64,000 bases of DNA from Promethearchaeia archaeon. Lineage in GTDB: Archaea; Asgardarchaeota; Lokiarchaeia; Sigyniarchaeales; SOKP01. A program made the translations under genes and the position numbers. Location: positions 94,904 through 158,903 of the forward strand of contig JAHQWG010000025.1 of the NCBI GenBank assembly GCA_029856045.1, written 5' to 3'. The notes under the pieces were generated by a model, which was not told the origin of the DNA, did not search any database, and worked only from the letters and a program-made list of their open reading frames with translations. This document shows positions 1,784 to 25,988 of this stretch, piece by piece (position 1 is the stretch's first letter; every line of letters starts with the position of its first letter).

Positions 1784-1882
1784 AAAGATTAAATAATTGC
1801 AAAAACATAATCAATTTTATTTGAATAGTTTAATTTAACGATTTTTAATAAAGAAAAGATCTTTAGCTAGAGGGGACAAAAG

Positions 1883-3070
1883 ATAGTAGATATTAGCAAT
1901 ATTAAAAATATTGTTGTGGTTGGAGCTGGTATTATGGGTCTCGGTATCACTCAATCTGCATTATGGGGTGGTTTTGAGAAGGTTGTCTTGAATGATATCA
2001 AAAAGGAATTTATTGATAACGGAATTAAAAAGATTGAAGAGGGGTTGAGAAAATCCGAATCTAAAGGAAAATTAGGGGAAGGGATTACTACTGATGCACT
2101 TATGCCAAATCTGATTAAAGAAGTGGATCTCGTAAAAGCTATTGCAGACGCTGATTTTATATTTGAAGTAGTTACTGAGGATTTGAAAATTAAACAAGAA
2201 GTATATAAAAAATTAGGAGAAAATTCTCCTGAACATACTATTTTCGCATCAAATACCTCAACTATAAAAATTACAGAATTGGGAGAAGCTTCAAATCGCC
2301 CTGAACAAGTAATAGGGATGCACTTTTTCCTACCTCCATATCGTCAAAGAGGGATAGAAATAATGAAAGGTGAAAAAACTTCTGATGAAACTATGGAAAT
2401 TGGTGTGGCTGTTGGCCAAAAATTACCATGTCTTGATGGGAAAAGAGTGATTGCTCAACTTGAAAAAGAAAGTCCAGGATTTATTGTAAATAGGCTACTT
2501 TTATCCGCCCAAATTTATTTTAATTGGATTCTTGATCAAACAGAAGAAAATAAGATTTCATTGGAACAAATTGATGCAGATGCAGGTAATTTAGTGTTAA
2601 TTGGTCCATGTGAATTATCTGATTATCTAGGATTAGACACTTTTTATAATAGTATGAAATCATTTGAAACAATACTTTCTCCAGATTTTGCTCCTGGAGA
2701 AGTTCTCACAAAATTGGTCTCAGAGGGACATTTTGGTAAAAAAACCGGGAAAGGCTTCTATGATTGGATTGAAGGAAAACCCAAAATAGATAAATCAAAA
2801 AAGGCAGGATTTTTTAATCCAGAAGTGATGATGGCTATTCAATTAAATGAGGGGTGTAGGCTTTTAGAAGAGGGAGTCGTTAAGGGATACAAGATTATTG
2901 ATGATATTATGTTAAGTGGTACTGGCATGCCTGGTCCATTCGGCGCTGGTAAAAGAAATTATGAAAAATGGTCTAATATGTTAAATAAATTAGCAACCCA
3001 GATTGGAAAAGAATATCTTAGACCTTGTAAATTATTAAAATCTGGAAATTTCATTGAAATGAGAAAATGA
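1883..3070 (+). CDS. 3-hydroxyacyl-CoA dehydrogenase (HAD paralogue 3), probable ATA start
   Basis: Same two-domain layout as paralogue 2: VGAGIMG Rossmann motif, NTSTIK, GMHFF, FIVNRL, KTGKGFYDW, ending FIEMRK. The ORF track begins at GTG 1916, inside the first beta-strand, deleting VDISNIKNI. Aligning with paralogue 2 (ATG GTC GAT ATT AGC) puts the start at ATA 1883 (ATA GTA GAT ATT AGC), giving 395 residues against 396. A strong SD (GAGGGG) sits 7 nt before that ATA, and the frame is closed by TAG at 1868, with no ATG/GTG/TTG before 1916. Either AUA is used as start or a G-to-A change has damaged the gene. The post-HFF residues (LPPYRQRG) differ from paralogue 2, suggesting another acyl-chain preference. 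Confidence 0.88.
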   Translation: MVDISNIKNIVVVGAGIMGLGITQSALWGGFEKVVLNDIKKEFIDNGIKKIEEGLRKSESKGKLGEGITTDALMPNLIKEVDLVKAIADADFIFEVVTEDLKIKQEVYKKLGENSPEHTIFASNTSTIKITELGEASNRPEQVIGMHFFLPPYRQRGIEIMKGEKTSDETMEIGVAVGQKLPCLDGKRVIAQLEKESPGFIVNRLLLSAQIYFNWILDQTEENKISLEQIDADAGNLVLIGPCELSDYLGLDTFYNSMKSFETILSPDFAPGEVLTKLVSEGHFGKKTGKGFYDWIEGKPKIDKSKKAGFFNPEVMMAIQLNEGCRLLEEGVVKGYKIIDDIMLSGTGMPGPFGAGKRNYEKWSNMLNKLATQIGKEYLRPCKLLKSGNFIEMRK

Positions 3071-16246: not shown

Positions 16247-16497
16247 TGAATTATCCTCAGTTCAATAAACAAAAGAAATTATACGATTATTAAATACATC
16301 AATTTTTTCTAAAATAATATTTTAACTATTTAATAATTATTTGAATTAAAAAAGTTAATAGAAAAGACTTTCCAAATTATTAAATTAGAAAAAAATTTTT
16401 ATTTTTTAATCAAAGAAAACTTAAAAATTTTGAATCTTGTTATTTTAATATGTGTTTTAAAACTATTTGGTGAATTTTAATAAAAAAAATTAAAAAA

Positions 16498-16977
16498 GTG
16501 TTATTTTTATGTTATGGAAACACATGCCGATCACCAGCAGCAGAATATTTAGCTAAAAATTTAGCGGAAAATAAATATGAAAAGGATTTGTTTGATGTGG
16601 AATTTGTATCTGCTGGTCTTACTAAAACTTTTGGATATGCTCAACCAGAAACAGTCAGATTTGCTAAATCTAGAGGGATAAATATGTCAAACTTCATACC
16701 GCAATTAATCGATTATTATCTTCTAGAATTAAATGATTTAATTTTAACTATGGAGCAAAAACAAGTGAATAAAATCCTTCAACATTTTCCAAAAATTCCA
16801 AATCTAAAAGCGAAAGTTTTTACTCTAAAGGGATTTGCAGGTGAAACTAAAGATGTTGATATCCCTGATCCTTATATGACAACTACCGAGTATTATAATA
16901 AGACCTTAGAGGAAATTGAGAAATTTGTAGAATTAAGTTTAAAAAAAATTATTGAATTGAATAAAAATTACACTTAA
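16498..16977 (+). CDS. Low-molecular-weight protein-tyrosine-phosphatase-like protein
   Basis: 159 residues. P-loop LCYGNTCRSPAAEYLA matches the family CX5R-S signature directly at the N-terminus, and the general-acid Asp is in DIPDPYMTT (about 125). LTMEQKQVNKIL and the C-terminal TLEEIEKFVE also fit. It would dephosphorylate phosphotyrosine or a small arsenate/phosphate ester. With the GTG 16498 start no residues precede the first strand, whereas relatives usually have a few (e.g. MKKVLFVC); in-frame upstream codons ATA/ATT AAA AAA would supply IKK, but no ATG exists before the TGA at 16471. Confidence 0.85.
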   Translation: MLFLCYGNTCRSPAAEYLAKNLAENKYEKDLFDVEFVSAGLTKTFGYAQPETVRFAKSRGINMSNFIPQLIDYYLLELNDLILTMEQKQVNKILQHFPKIPNLKAKVFTLKGFAGETKDVDIPDPYMTTTEYYNKTLEEIEKFVELSLKKIIELNKNYT

Positions 16978-20811: not shown

Positions 20812-21009
20812 AAAACAAAAAAAATCTCATAAAAAATATCCTTTTTCTTAATTTTTTTCTTTTAGAAAATTCTTTGAAATTAGATGAATGATAAAATACT
20901 TTAAAAATTAAAGAAATCTCTTATAAAATTTTTATACTATTTTTATAATATATCTTCATAGCAATTTTTTGAAAAAAAAATCTAATTATTATTATTTGGG
21001 TGAACAAAA

Positions 21010-23271
21010 ATATCAACTGAAACTAATAGTGAAATTAAAAAGATTAAGGCTGAAAAAAAGCTAAAGGAATCTAAAATAAAAAAGGAAAAAAAGAAATCTA
21101 AAATAAAAAGCGAGAAACAAAAAGAGAGAGAGGAAGTAGAAAAAAAAGAACATTCTTTAAGGGCCATTGCATTAGATACTGGCGGAACAATGAGTGATTC
21201 TTTTGTAATTGACGAAGAAGGAACATTTATAATAGGAAAGGCAATTACTACTCCAGAGGATGAGTCTGAAGGGATATTAAATTCAATTAAGGATGCTTTA
21301 GGTTATTGGGATACGACTTTAGAAGATTCAGGAGGATCTGTAGAAGCCTTAGTATATTCTGGAACAACAATGATAAATAGGCTTTTAGAGAGAAAGGGAA
21401 ACAGTAATATTGGAATTATAGTTAATGCAGGTTTTGAGGATCTCCCCAGATTAGGAAGAGCTCTTCAATGTTGGATATGGCTCGACTATGGAGGACGCCT
21501 CCATGCGAGGGAACACGAACACCCCAAACCACTAGTACCAAGGAAACAAATTAAAGGTGTCCGCGGACGAATCAATTTCTGGGGAGAGGAGCTGATTCCA
21601 CTTTATAAAGATGAAGTTAGAGTAGCCATAGAAGAATTACTCGAAATGGGGGTGGATAGTATTTGTGTTTGCCTACTTTGTTCCTACATGAATCCAGCTC
21701 ATGAAAAACGTGTGAAAAGGATTGCAGAACGGCTAATGAAGGAAAAAGATAAGAAGATTCCTATAATCTTATCATGCGAGCATAATCCTGTTAGAGGTGA
21801 AACTCCTAGACTAAATGCTCTTATCATTGAACAGTATGCTGCAGAACCATCAAGAAAATTGTTAGTAAAAATTGCCGAAACTTTTCAAGAGAAACAAGTT
21901 CCCGCGCCTCTTAGAATCTTAACAACTTATGGAGGTACAATCTCCCCATATCACAAACAACTCATTACAACCCTAGTATCCGGTCCTATTGGTGGAATGA
22001 TAGGATGCAAATTCATAGCCAAGGAATATGGAATAAAGAACTTAGTATCCTCAGATGTAGGGGGTACCAGTTTCGATGTAGGTCTTATAATGGAAAATTA
22101 CGTTCCTACCAAATGGGAGAGTTCTGTTGGAAAATTCATTTTAAACATACCCATGATAGGTTTAAACTCAATAGGTGCAGGTACTGGCATGTATGTGAGA
22201 TATAATAAAGTTTCAGGAAGATTAGAATTTGGACCTGAAAGTGCAGGATATCGTATCGGAGTATGTAATGAGCCATCTGGAGTTGAAACAGTCACAATGA
22301 CGGATTGTAGTTTAATTTTGGGATATCTCAATCCAGACTATTTTCTCGGAGGAAATATTCCATTAGACAAGAAGCGAGCATATAAATATATCAAAGAACA
22401 GTTGGCAGACCCTTTTGGTGTAGACCCAGAAAGAACTGCACGAGGTGCACTTGATTTAATAGAGATTAACATGAAAAATCATCTTAATGGAATGATTCAA
22501 GGTCTTGGTTTCAGACCAGAGAACTATACCCTCATCTCCTTCGGAGGGGCTGGGCCACTCCATGTGGCAGGATATGCTAGGGAGTTAAAGTTTCAAGATA
22601 TTATGATACCAGAATGGGCAGCTGCGTTCTCAGCGTATGGTTGTGCATGTGCCGAACATTCTTACAGACATGAAAAGTCTGTGGATTTATTGATACCTCC
22701 TGATGGGAGTATGAATGAAATTGTATCTATGATGCTCAACGCTACGTGGAGTGAATTAAAAAAGGATATAATAAAAGAGTTTGAAAAAGAGGATAGAGAT
22801 CCTAGTGAAATGGAATTTATTCCCTCAGTTCGAATACAATATTTTGGTATGTTTGATGATTTAGAAGTAACATCTACATCTGATAATCTTAAAGCCGAAG
22901 ATGTGTGGAAACTGGCAAGAAGTTATGATGATCTTTTCGATCAAATATTTCGAAGAGGTACAAAAAGTCCTAATCTTGGATATCATATAACCAAGGCGGT
23001 GGCAACAGGGATTATTCCAGTTCCTAAGCCCAAATTGCCGGATTATAAGTTGAGTGGGAAGGATCCGTACAAAGGAGCAAATAAAGGAAAGAGAAAAATA
23101 TTCTGGGAAGCTGATTGGCATAATGCTTCACTTTGGGAGATGAATTTACTTAATCCTGGAAATTTAATAGATGGTCCCGCAGTTATCGAGGCTCCGGCAA
23201 CCACTTTACTGGTTCCGCCGGGTTTTAAAGTTTTTCTTGATAAACATAGAATTTTTCATATGGAGGTGTAA
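21010..23271 (+). CDS. acxA: Acetone carboxylase-like beta subunit (HyuA/oxoprolinase family), with Lys-rich extension and probable ATA start
   Basis: ATP-binding hydantoinase A-type subunit: RAIALDTGGTMSDSFVIDEEG is the N-terminal ASKHA phosphate-binding strand, and GKAITTPEDESEGILNS, YSGTTMINRLLERKG, DVGGTSFDVG, ISFGGAGPLH follow. Together with the next two genes the set matches acetone carboxylase, which turns acetone, bicarbonate and ATP into acetoacetate. The ORF track's ATG 21190 lies inside DTGGTM and cannot be the start. The frame is open back to TGA 21001 and contains no ATG, GTG or TTG; ATA 21010 (ATA TCA ACT GAA), 7 nt after GGGTGA, gives 753 residues. Residues 1-55 form a Lys/Glu-rich extension I do not know from relatives. 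An indel in the A5 run at 21005-21010 (making GTG 21000 the start) is the alternative. Confidence 0.85.
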   Translation: MSTETNSEIKKIKAEKKLKESKIKKEKKKSKIKSEKQKEREEVEKKEHSLRAIALDTGGTMSDSFVIDEEGTFIIGKAITTPEDESEGILNSIKDALGYWDTTLEDSGGSVEALVYSGTTMINRLLERKGNSNIGIIVNAGFEDLPRLGRALQCWIWLDYGGRLHAREHEHPKPLVPRKQIKGVRGRINFWGEELIPLYKDEVRVAIEELLEMGVDSICVCLLCSYMNPAHEKRVKRIAERLMKEKDKKIPIILSCEHNPVRGETPRLNALIIEQYAAEPSRKLLVKIAETFQEKQVPAPLRILTTYGGTISPYHKQLITTLVSGPIGGMIGCKFIAKEYGIKNLVSSDVGGTSFDVGLIMENYVPTKWESSVGKFILNIPMIGLNSIGAGTGMYVRYNKVSGRLEFGPESAGYRIGVCNEPSGVETVTMTDCSLILGYLNPDYFLGGNIPLDKKRAYKYIKEQLADPFGVDPERTARGALDLIEINMKNHLNGMIQGLGFRPENYTLISFGGAGPLHVAGYARELKFQDIMIPEWAAAFSAYGCACAEHSYRHEKSVDLLIPPDGSMNEIVSMMLNATWSELKKDIIKEFEKEDRDPSEMEFIPSVRIQYFGMFDDLEVTSTSDNLKAEDVWKLARSYDDLFDQIFRRGTKSPNLGYHITKAVATGIIPVPKPKLPDYKLSGKDPYKGANKGKRKIFWEADWHNASLWEMNLLNPGNLIDGPAVIEAPATTLLVPPGFKVFLDKHRIFHMEV

Positions 23272-23275
23272 AGAA

Positions 23276-25492
23276 ATGAATAATAAACCAATTGGATGGA
23301 ATGGAAAAACACTTATGAAAATGCTTGAAGAAAGCGAGAAATATATAAAGGAAACAAAATCATATTATGGAATAGATAAACTAAAGTTAAAGGAAGAAGA
23401 CCCTTTTGAATATGAACGAGCATTTGCAAGTCTTAGAGGTGCATTAGTTTCTGCAAGAGAAACTGCATTACATGTTGCCGCTTCACCCATTGTTAAAGAG
23501 ATTGGTGAGCTCTGCTTTGCTTTATATACTCCAGAAGGTGATTCTATTGTTGTTTCAACTGGTATCTTGGTTCATGTCCACACAATGAGCGAAGCCGTAA
23601 AATTTATGGTAAAAGAGGATTATGAACAAGACCCCGGAATCAACCCAGGTGATATTTTTCTAAATAATGACCCCGAATGCGGAAATGTGCATACAACAGA
23701 TGTCCAGACTCTAATTCCGATATTCTGGAAGGAAGAATTGATTGGCTGGGCGGGAGGTGTAACTCATCAAATCGATTCTGGAGGTATTACTCCAGGTCAT
23801 GATTTAGTTGCAGCTATTCAACGTTTTGATGATGGGGTTTATTACACTTGTCGAAAGATCGGATCGAATGATAAAATATGGAAAGATCACATGATAAATG
23901 CTCGAAGATCAGTTAGAACTCCATTTTATTGGGAGTTGGACGAAAAATGTAGATTAGCGGGAGATTTAATGATTCGAGATGCGGTTCTAGAGTTTATAGA
24001 GAGAGAAGGAATTGAATACTATAAACAATTTATAAGAGAGGTAATAGAGGAGGGAAGAAGGATTTTTCAAGAACGTGTGAAAGAACGACTGATACCTGGG
24101 AGGTATAGAGCTGCAGCTTTCTTTGATATACCTATGAAGGAAGAAGCTTGGCAACCTAGGGCAAAAATAGATAAGGTCAGCAACCAACCATTAGAAATAA
24201 TAATTAAGAATGATGGAAAAATGTCACTTTCATTTGATGGAGCAAGTGGTCCTGGAGCAAATCCTATGAACTGTGCAAAAGGAGCAATGGAAGGAGGTCA
24301 ATGGGTTCTCTTAACGCAGGTTTTAATATATGGAGATAAAGTGAATGATGGGGCATATTTTGCTGTAGAGACAGATTACCCGCTAGGAACATGGTGTAAT
24401 CCAGGAGATTCTTCTTTATCATATCAGAGTCCTTGGGGTAATTTAATTCCTGCATATACGGGAATGATGAAGTGTCTATCTTATGGACTATTCTCGCGTG
24501 GATATAGAGAAGAAATCGTTCCAGGGTATGGGTTTACCGGAGATGCAATTCAAGGTGGAGGAATTTATTCTGCTGGGCCGCTTAAAGGGGAAAGGTGGTC
24601 ATTATCAACATTTGAGATTAGCGGTCAAGGCTTGGGAGCAAGTGGTGTTAGAGATGGACTGGATTGGGGATATGCAATGTGGAATCCAGAAGCTGACCTT
24701 GGAGATGTTGAAACATGGGAACTATTCCAAGGAGGAATTCCTTATTTATCAAGAAGAGTTAAACCAAATACTGCAGGTCATGGAAAATATCGAGGTGGAG
24801 CAAATTATGAAGGAGTGGCAATGATTGCAAATTCAAAAGAAGTGGACTTTTTTGGAGCTAGGGATGGTTATTGTTTTCATGGATCTGGTGGTATGCACGG
24901 GGGTTATCCTCATGCAACTGGATATCGACTTTATGCCAAAAAGACAAATATTCAGGAGATTATACAAAATCAAAAAGAATATCCATTAGGAGATCCAGAT
25001 CCTAGTAATGGTGAATTTGAGAAATTACTAGAGGGAGATATTGTGAGAAAGAAATACTGCACAATCTATCCTATCATCTTGGAGAATAACGATATTATTT
25101 ATTATGCATTAAGTGGAGGTCCAGGATACGGTGATCCTCTAGAGAGAAAGGTGGAGAGTGTAAAACAAGACCTTAATAATGGAATTTACACAAATGATTT
25201 AGTCTATAATATTTATGGTGTAGTAGCAGAATATGATGAAGAAATGGGAGAGTGGGTAATCGACAAAATGGGCACAGACATACGTCGAGAAGAAATTAGA
25301 GCGGAACGAAAAGATAAATCCTTGACATTTGATGATTATTGGGAACAAGAACGGTGGAAAATTACGGAAGATATGCTGAGTGAACCAGTAAAACTAATGT
25401 ATTCTGAAAGTTTAAATTTATCTCCAAAATGGGCAAAGGAATTCCTAGAATTTTGGAGATTACCCGAGGATTTCCAACTGGAGGTGAAATAA
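23276..25492 (+). CDS. acxB: Acetone carboxylase-like alpha subunit (HyuB/oxoprolinase family)
   Basis: 738 residues from ATG 23276, 4 bp after acxA stop and behind a perfect GGAGGTG; the ORF-track Met at 23171 is inside acxA. Family features: RGALVSARETALHVAASP, ILVHVHTMSEAVK, DPGINPGDIFLNNDPECGNVHTTD, GWAGGVTHQIDSGG, SFDGASGPGANPMNCAKGA, HGSGGMHGGYPHATGYRL. As I recall the acetone carboxylase structure, Mn is held by a His, an Asp three residues later and a His 25 residues after the first; here HTTD and the His of VTHQ have exactly that spacing. This supports acetone (or a related ketone such as acetophenone) carboxylase over hydantoinase or 5-oxoprolinase. Confidence 0.9.
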   Translation: MNNKPIGWNGKTLMKMLEESEKYIKETKSYYGIDKLKLKEEDPFEYERAFASLRGALVSARETALHVAASPIVKEIGELCFALYTPEGDSIVVSTGILVHVHTMSEAVKFMVKEDYEQDPGINPGDIFLNNDPECGNVHTTDVQTLIPIFWKEELIGWAGGVTHQIDSGGITPGHDLVAAIQRFDDGVYYTCRKIGSNDKIWKDHMINARRSVRTPFYWELDEKCRLAGDLMIRDAVLEFIEREGIEYYKQFIREVIEEGRRIFQERVKERLIPGRYRAAAFFDIPMKEEAWQPRAKIDKVSNQPLEIIIKNDGKMSLSFDGASGPGANPMNCAKGAMEGGQWVLLTQVLIYGDKVNDGAYFAVETDYPLGTWCNPGDSSLSYQSPWGNLIPAYTGMMKCLSYGLFSRGYREEIVPGYGFTGDAIQGGGIYSAGPLKGERWSLSTFEISGQGLGASGVRDGLDWGYAMWNPEADLGDVETWELFQGGIPYLSRRVKPNTAGHGKYRGGANYEGVAMIANSKEVDFFGARDGYCFHGSGGMHGGYPHATGYRLYAKKTNIQEIIQNQKEYPLGDPDPSNGEFEKLLEGDIVRKKYCTIYPIILENNDIIYYALSGGPGYGDPLERKVESVKQDLNNGIYTNDLVYNIYGVVAEYDEEMGEWVIDKMGTDIRREEIRAERKDKSLTFDDYWEQERWKITEDMLSEPVKLMYSESLNLSPKWAKEFLEFWRLPEDFQLEVK

Positions 25493-25493
25493 A

Positions 25494-25988
25494 ATGGTAA
25501 AATACGATAAAAAGACACTTGAAAGGATGATTAATGGAGATTTGACTTGGGAGGAATTAAAACCAATAATAAGTGGTACAAAGGATCCTGATAGATTTGA
25601 TAAAATTATTGAGATTTTACAAGAAAAAGTCTCTTGGGATGAGAAAATCATCTTACCAATTCATGAACATTTATATATCGTCTCAAAGGATGATAAAAGA
25701 ATAGTAAAATGTGATTGCGGATATGAGTATGGAGATTATAAAGAGAACTGGAAAAAGAAATGTAGAATAAATGTGAGAGATACAGCTGAAGAGCTTGAAG
25801 AATTTTATCCAAAATATATGGCTAGTGACCCAGATTGGATGGAACTTAGAGAATATTTCTGTCCTGGTTGTTTTACACTGCTAGATACGGAAGCTGTACC
25901 TCCAGGATATCCTACAATTTTTAATTTTCTGCCCGATATTGATGCATTCTACAAAGAGTGGCTTGGAAGAAAAGCTCCAGATAGATAG
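25494..25988 (+). CDS. acxC: Acetone carboxylase-like gamma subunit
   Basis: 164 residues, ATG two bases after the alpha-subunit stop with its own GGAGGTG, so the three genes form one tightly coupled operon. Cysteine pairs CDCGYEYG (about 73) and FCPGCFTLL (about 121) look like a zinc site; ENWKKKCRINVRDTAEELEEFYPKY and FLPDIDAFYKEWLG are typical of the acetone carboxylase gamma subunit. Gamma subunits are not found with hydantoinases or oxoprolinases, so its presence is the strongest argument for the ketone-carboxylase assignment. A T-run about 90 bases downstream may end the transcript. Confidence 0.85.
   Translation: MVKYDKKTLERMINGDLTWEELKPIISGTKDPDRFDKIIEILQEKVSWDEKIILPIHEHLYIVSKDDKRIVKCDCGYEYGDYKENWKKKCRINVRDTAEELEEFYPKYMASDPDWMELREYFCPGCFTLLDTEAVPPGYPTIFNFLPDIDAFYKEWLGRKAPDR

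Follow-up and report, generated by a model that had tools for sequence, protein, structure and literature searches.

In a 64,000-nucleotide stretch of a Promethearchaeia archaeon of the order Sigyniarchaeales (GenBank assembly GCA_029856045.1, contig JAHQWG010000025.1, positions 94,904 to 158,903 of the forward strand; hereafter the window), the acxA/hyuA gene, whose product is the A subunit of an enzyme resembling acetone carboxylase, lacks any ATG, GTG or TTG from which its conserved N-terminus could be translated. Comparison with orthologues makes it very probable that the gene is functional and translated from an AUA codon at 21010, as one case of lineage-wide initiation at near-cognate codons helped by a Shine-Dalgarno (SD) sequence. 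The elements of the start region are as follows.

20998..21003, + strand: SD sequence GGGTGA, whose TGA doubles as the in-frame stop bounding the acxA frame; the same in two congeners (loci L035 and L036)
21010..21012, + strand: proposed ATA start codon of acxA/hyuA
21010..23271, + strand: acxA/hyuA coding sequence, ATA to TAA (Hydant_A_N, Hydantoinase_A, Hydant_A_C)
21013..21156, + strand: Lys/Glu-rich N-terminal insertion between Met-Ser-Thr and the domain; genus-specific and free of indels in three species
21175..21189, + strand: DTGGT phosphate-binding motif, 5' of the first ATG (21190)

The acxA/hyuA frame is bounded on its 5' side by an in-frame TGA (21001-21003). Between this stop and the GAT codon (Asp) at 21175 that opens DTGGT, not one ATG, GTG or TTG occurs in frame, and the first in-frame ATG (21190) lies 3' of the DTGGT codons. 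Pfam assigns Hydant_A_N to the open frame from residue 55 on, upstream of ATG 21190. Together with the position of DTGGT, this places the true start of the gene 5' of that ATG; a first-pass annotation of the window had reached the same two points, the early motif and the missing starts, and the frame bears it out. By chance, 57 codons remained open in 0.7% of 4,000 dinucleotide shuffles (P = 0.007), and open without a standard start in 0.2% of them (P = 0.002), so the 5' stretch is a genuine coding frame without a standard start. A conserved N-terminus that no standard start can reach was found in five other genes besides acxA. Readthrough of the TGA from further 5' was considered and rejected, there being only five codons upstream of it before the next stop, and no start among them. 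Gene callers would choose ATG 21190 as the first standard start, which would fit a decaying or truncated acxA that excludes DTGGT. Such a gene is very improbable, since the 5' part is free of stops and indels in three species, DTGGT is kept in every AcxA orthologue compared, and the whole gene shows 102 synonymous versus 34 nonsynonymous codons among these species.

The position of the start is indicated by orthologues outside the window genus but within its GTDB family, which begin with ATG or TTG 7-18 codons 5' of the domain and frequently have Met/Leu-Ser-Lys as their N-terminus. Their start sites read GGTGA-AATTTT-ATG-TCG (L015, L018), GGTGA-AATTTA-TTG-TCC (L016) and GGTGA-AAAAAT-TTG (L009); that of the window reads GGTGA-ACAAAA-ATA-TCA, i.e., GGTGA, 6 nt, ATA and then Ser. 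Because the four orthologues share GGTGA, 6 nt and a start, the comparison identifies ATA 21010 as the homologous start codon of acxA, after which Ser-2 is retained. This agrees with the earlier proposals that GGGTGA serves as the SD of an ATA start and that the protein begins Met-Ser. Only in the window genus are the start and the domain separated by a Lys-rich stretch, about 45 residues long.

Two congeners, isolate 6H3_1 (G001, L035) and CSMAG_2237 (G004, L036), have AcxA proteins that are 95% identical, and both carry TTTGGGTGAACAAAAATATCAACT exactly as in the window, GGGTGA-ACAAAA-ATA-TCA included, so that GGTGA stands 6 nt before the ATA in three species. The comparison of start codons that had been suggested finds no usable standard start before the domain in either congener, the sole one in L035 being a TTG one codon before the Asp of DTGGT. 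Three indels and several substitutions set the congeners apart upstream of acxA, and no indel falls within the 174 nt between TGA and DTGGT. An error of sequencing or assembly in the run of five A's had been named as the alternative, since one missing A would link GTG 21000 with the acxA frame (MNKISTET...). GTG 21000-21002 was correctly placed in that proposal, and the run lies at 21006-21010, not 21005-21010 as had been given. The error itself is rejected as extremely improbable, because two independently assembled congeners, one on a 912 kb contig at 69x coverage, keep the same five A's yet differ elsewhere; moreover, GTG 21000 falls within the SD and has none of its own.

The same GTG opens a mini open reading frame (ORF), GTG AAC AAA AAT ATC AAC TGA, present in all three species with its stop (TAA in L036), from which a programmed +1 frameshift or transcriptional slippage could reach the acxA frame within six codons. 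This route is very unlikely given the missing SD; besides, the mini-ORF stop of L036 survives only via a Glu to Lys change, and the other genes described below have no mini-ORF, yet carry ATT, ACG or ATC where orthologues have ATG or TTG. It could also be that another near-cognate codon of the acxA frame is used, either ATT 21034 or ATT 21166 just before ALDTGG, and that the A-rich stretch is a leader. Across three species, all 3 changes in the first 41 codons are nonsynonymous, which leaves coding selection there unproven, and ATT 21166 would yield a compact N-terminus. Even so, such a start is highly unlikely, since the SD before 21166 is not conserved (GAGAGAGAGG in the window, GATACTTTAG in relatives), the family spacing of GGTGA plus 6 nt with Ser-2 occurs only at ATA 21010, and the frame would seldom be open by chance (P = 0.007). 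An overlapping RNA element in the 5' region was rejected as an account of the low divergence, other 41-codon windows diverging as little as the first, and a leader homologous to this region was searched for outside the genus and not found.

Initiation from AUA 21010 is not an isolated case. A sample of about 676 kb from the window genome, comprising three contigs including that of the window, holds 535 long ORFs, of which 17 run for 35 codons or more without a standard start; several of these have domains beginning upstream of their first standard start. Five startless ORFs were traced through the family: a roadblock protein, two small GTPases and an ERCC4 nuclease (ATT in the window genome) and a corrinoid protein (ACG). 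Orthologues of most of them have ATG or TTG at the same codon. At codon 1 of the small GTPase (MPSRRGDGTLVFK), for instance, 16 genomes have ATG, 10 have TTG and 4 have ATT; these 4 all belong to the window genus, whose fifth member (G003) has ATG there. Four congeners begin the corrinoid protein with ACG, G011 with ATA and G015 with ATC; ATG stands in five genomes and TTG in two. The second GTPase has ATT in three congeners and reads GGAGATGA-TATATC-CTG in G006; the ERCC4 nuclease likewise has ATT in three congeners, with GGTGT 6 nt upstream. These last two appear to be the weaker cases, as orthologue N-termini align loosely outside the genus.

The roadblock protein has ATT at codon 1 in 16 genomes, TTG in 6, ATG in 5, and ATC, ATA and ACG in one each. 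In most, AGGTGT or GGAGATGT precedes the codon by 6 nt. The gene of the window genome runs for 138 codons without a standard start. Any standard start is absent in 13 of the 30 family genomes, spread over several genera, whereas every orthologue from 80 Asgard genomes of 20 other families has a standard codon (ATG, GTG or TTG) close to the aligned position (Fisher p = 4.5e-9, relatedness ignored). One genome outside the family (G157 of f7, L276) has an ambiguous roadblock start, with a GTG overlapping the SD and an ATT five codons before the anchor.

Two further candidates lie inside the window.

1883..1885, + strand: ATA start of a 3-hydroxyacyl-CoA dehydrogenase (HADH), ORF to 3070 (frame 1871-3070), behind AGAGGGGA and 6 nt
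16480..16482, + strand: likely ATA start of a low-molecular-weight phosphatase, ORF 16474-16977; GGTGA-ATTTTA-ATA-AAA-AAA is kept in G004 and G001

The HADH site reads AGAGGGGA-CAAAAG-ATA-GTA-GAT-ATT. The congener G004 has ATG at the matching codon behind the same SD, a single-base ATG/ATA difference, and an HADH paralogue in G004 begins ATG-GTT-GAT-ATT-AGC-AAT-ATT-AAG. The first standard start of HADH, a GTG, falls within the Rossmann motif. A codon one base from AUG is found at the homologous start position both in HADH, by the ATA/ATG difference, and in acxA, as judged by SD spacing and Ser-2. The phosphatase has a GTG six codons after ATA 16480 as an alternative start.

The association with SD sequences was assessed over the 535 ORFs. 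Only codons 5' of the first standard start were counted, because GGTGA at 6 nt places TGA in frame and internal codons are a biased control for that reason. An SD at 6 nt preceded 10 of 605 near-cognate codons versus 8 of 3143 other codons, a 6.6-fold enrichment (p = 1.4e-4), and pooling three genomes of the family gave p = 1.7e-5. A loose scan (spacing 4-9, any codon) gave no signal, which appeared once the scan was limited to the pre-start stretch and to 6 nt.

The SUI1/aIF1 gene, which encodes a start-codon fidelity factor, was inspected in 28 genomes (loci L385-L410). In ten genomes of the window family (f1) it has no standard in-frame start before the conserved Cys-x-x-Cys and carries a conserved ATT at the expected place, ATT AAA GAY in most. 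Outside the family, standard starts are also missing in G067 of f3 (ATA CCA), in G156 and G157 of f7 (ATA GAR) and in G175 and G187 of f28, where GGAGAACGTGAAAC-CTG-TCA or similar apparently provides a CTG start; f4, f15 and f19 have ATG. The best SD of the family aIF1 genes (GGTTGTGA) sits more than 6 nt from the start, which makes this gene less tidy than the others. In the window genus ATA CCT is present, and a GTG ten codons upstream is an alternative start, which makes this genus ambiguous. In most lokiarchaeal genomes checked, the aIF1 gene lacks a standard start and apparently begins at a near-cognate codon, as control of the infC type would have it. An infC-like loop in which aIF1 acts on its own level is plausible by analogy. 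A special initiator tRNA was rejected as an explanation, the initiator-type tRNA found (L255) having A1-U72, an intron and a normal CAU anticodon in a tRNA listing that is not exhaustive, as introns hide some.

The alignments show that a standard start is absent, that the start position is homologous and that the SD is conserved. In the mechanism proposed, 16S rRNA would pair with GGGUGA and position the 30S subunit at AUA 21010, 6 nt downstream, where the ordinary CAU Met-tRNAi would presumably read the near-cognate codon, the protein starting Met-Ser-Thr. Throughout the lineage AUU, AUA, AUC, ACG and probably CUG would replace AUG or UUG at homologous starts, usually with an SD 6-7 nt upstream. 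Lowered initiation rates and sensitivity to, or control by, the level of aIF1 may follow. A broader claim is favoured by a slight balance of judgement: that in Lokiarchaeia and some other Asgard archaea AUU, AUA, AUC, ACG and CUG are the true starts of about 1% of genes or more, aIF1 included, with an infC-like feedback that sets the aIF1 level and co-regulates the genes with near-cognate starts.

Several points weigh against these readings. The whole case is comparative, the genomes compared are metagenome assemblies, and three acxA sequences from one genus amount to few independent observations. At ATG, SD-led starts are a minority in the window genome. The SD enrichment is weak in G029, a genome of the same family (p = 0.09), and is present too in the f3 genome G068 (p = 0.03), which blurs the phylogenetic limit. 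Since the G068 sample also holds ORFs that look startless, the near-cognate habit probably extends beyond the window's family.

Near-cognate starts are known from bacteria, chloroplasts and eukaryotes; in bacteria infC, the gene for IF3, has an AUU start and is repressed by its own product. The lokiarchaeal pattern resembles that system in combining a near-cognate codon with an SD, in the presumed use of the ordinary initiator tRNA and in a fidelity-factor gene that itself apparently uses such a codon; it differs in the archaeal/eukaryotic-type ribosome, in having aIF1 instead of IF3, in the many unrelated genes involved and in the use of ACG and CTG too. In bacteria AUU, AUC and AUA are rare starts that IF3 discriminates against (PMC4611024). 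Eukaryotic eIF1 autoregulates through a poor-context AUG, and Saccharolobus aIF1 favours discrimination against non-canonical codons, both as cited in PMC6237735. As with eIF1, the quality of the start site of the aIF1 gene could feed back on its own level; in lokiarchaea, however, the codon itself is near-cognate, scanning is absent, an SD takes the place of Kozak context and the feedback is only inferred. For archaea, one review names only AUG, GUG and UUG as starts and reports that SD sequences are not prevalent in Promethearchaeum (PMC7531240). Initiation of that kind, used by most genes of the window genome, shares its machinery and SD spacing with the near-cognate cases. A change of an AUG start to AUU was seen once in 61,358 cases across 36 groups of prokaryotes (PMC5622118), which makes the lokiarchaeal pattern unusual. 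No report of AUU, AUA or ACG starts in archaea was found in the open-access literature searched, an absence that is weak evidence. The larger finding, as far as the sequences indicate, is that near-cognate initiation recurs and is conserved within a lokiarchaeal lineage.

Prokaryote gene finders accept only ATG, GTG and TTG, and genes with near-cognate starts get misread. Should Asgard archaea use such starts commonly, N-termini are being cut and whole small proteins missed in genomes that serve studies of eukaryote origins. These genes also form a natural set for studying start-codon choice by the archaeal, eukaryote-like initiation machinery, and feedback through aIF1, bacterial IF3 and eukaryotic eIF1 offers a testable parallel.

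Two genes adjoin acxA.

23276..25492, + strand: acxB/hyuB (Hydantoinase_B), with an ordinary ATG behind GGAGGTG
25494..25988, + strand: acetone carboxylase gamma-like subunit (Acetone_carb_G), ATG start

The domains Hydant_A_N and Hydantoinase_A, the C-terminal domain and the adjoining B and gamma genes identify the protein as an acetone carboxylase-like HyuA/AcxA. It resembles the A subunits of acetone and acetophenone carboxylases (HyuA family; ApcC, AcxA) in Pfam domain order and in the gene order A-B-gamma, and differs from them in its Lys-rich N-terminal insertion and in scoring far under the NCBIfam cut-off for the acetophenone carboxylase ApcC equivalog (361 versus 1500 bits). Elsewhere in the family, an ORF resembling O6-methylguanine-DNA methyltransferase (G029:C1:81499-82062) runs for 161 codons without a standard start and has GGTGA-CAAAGT-ATA near its 5' end.
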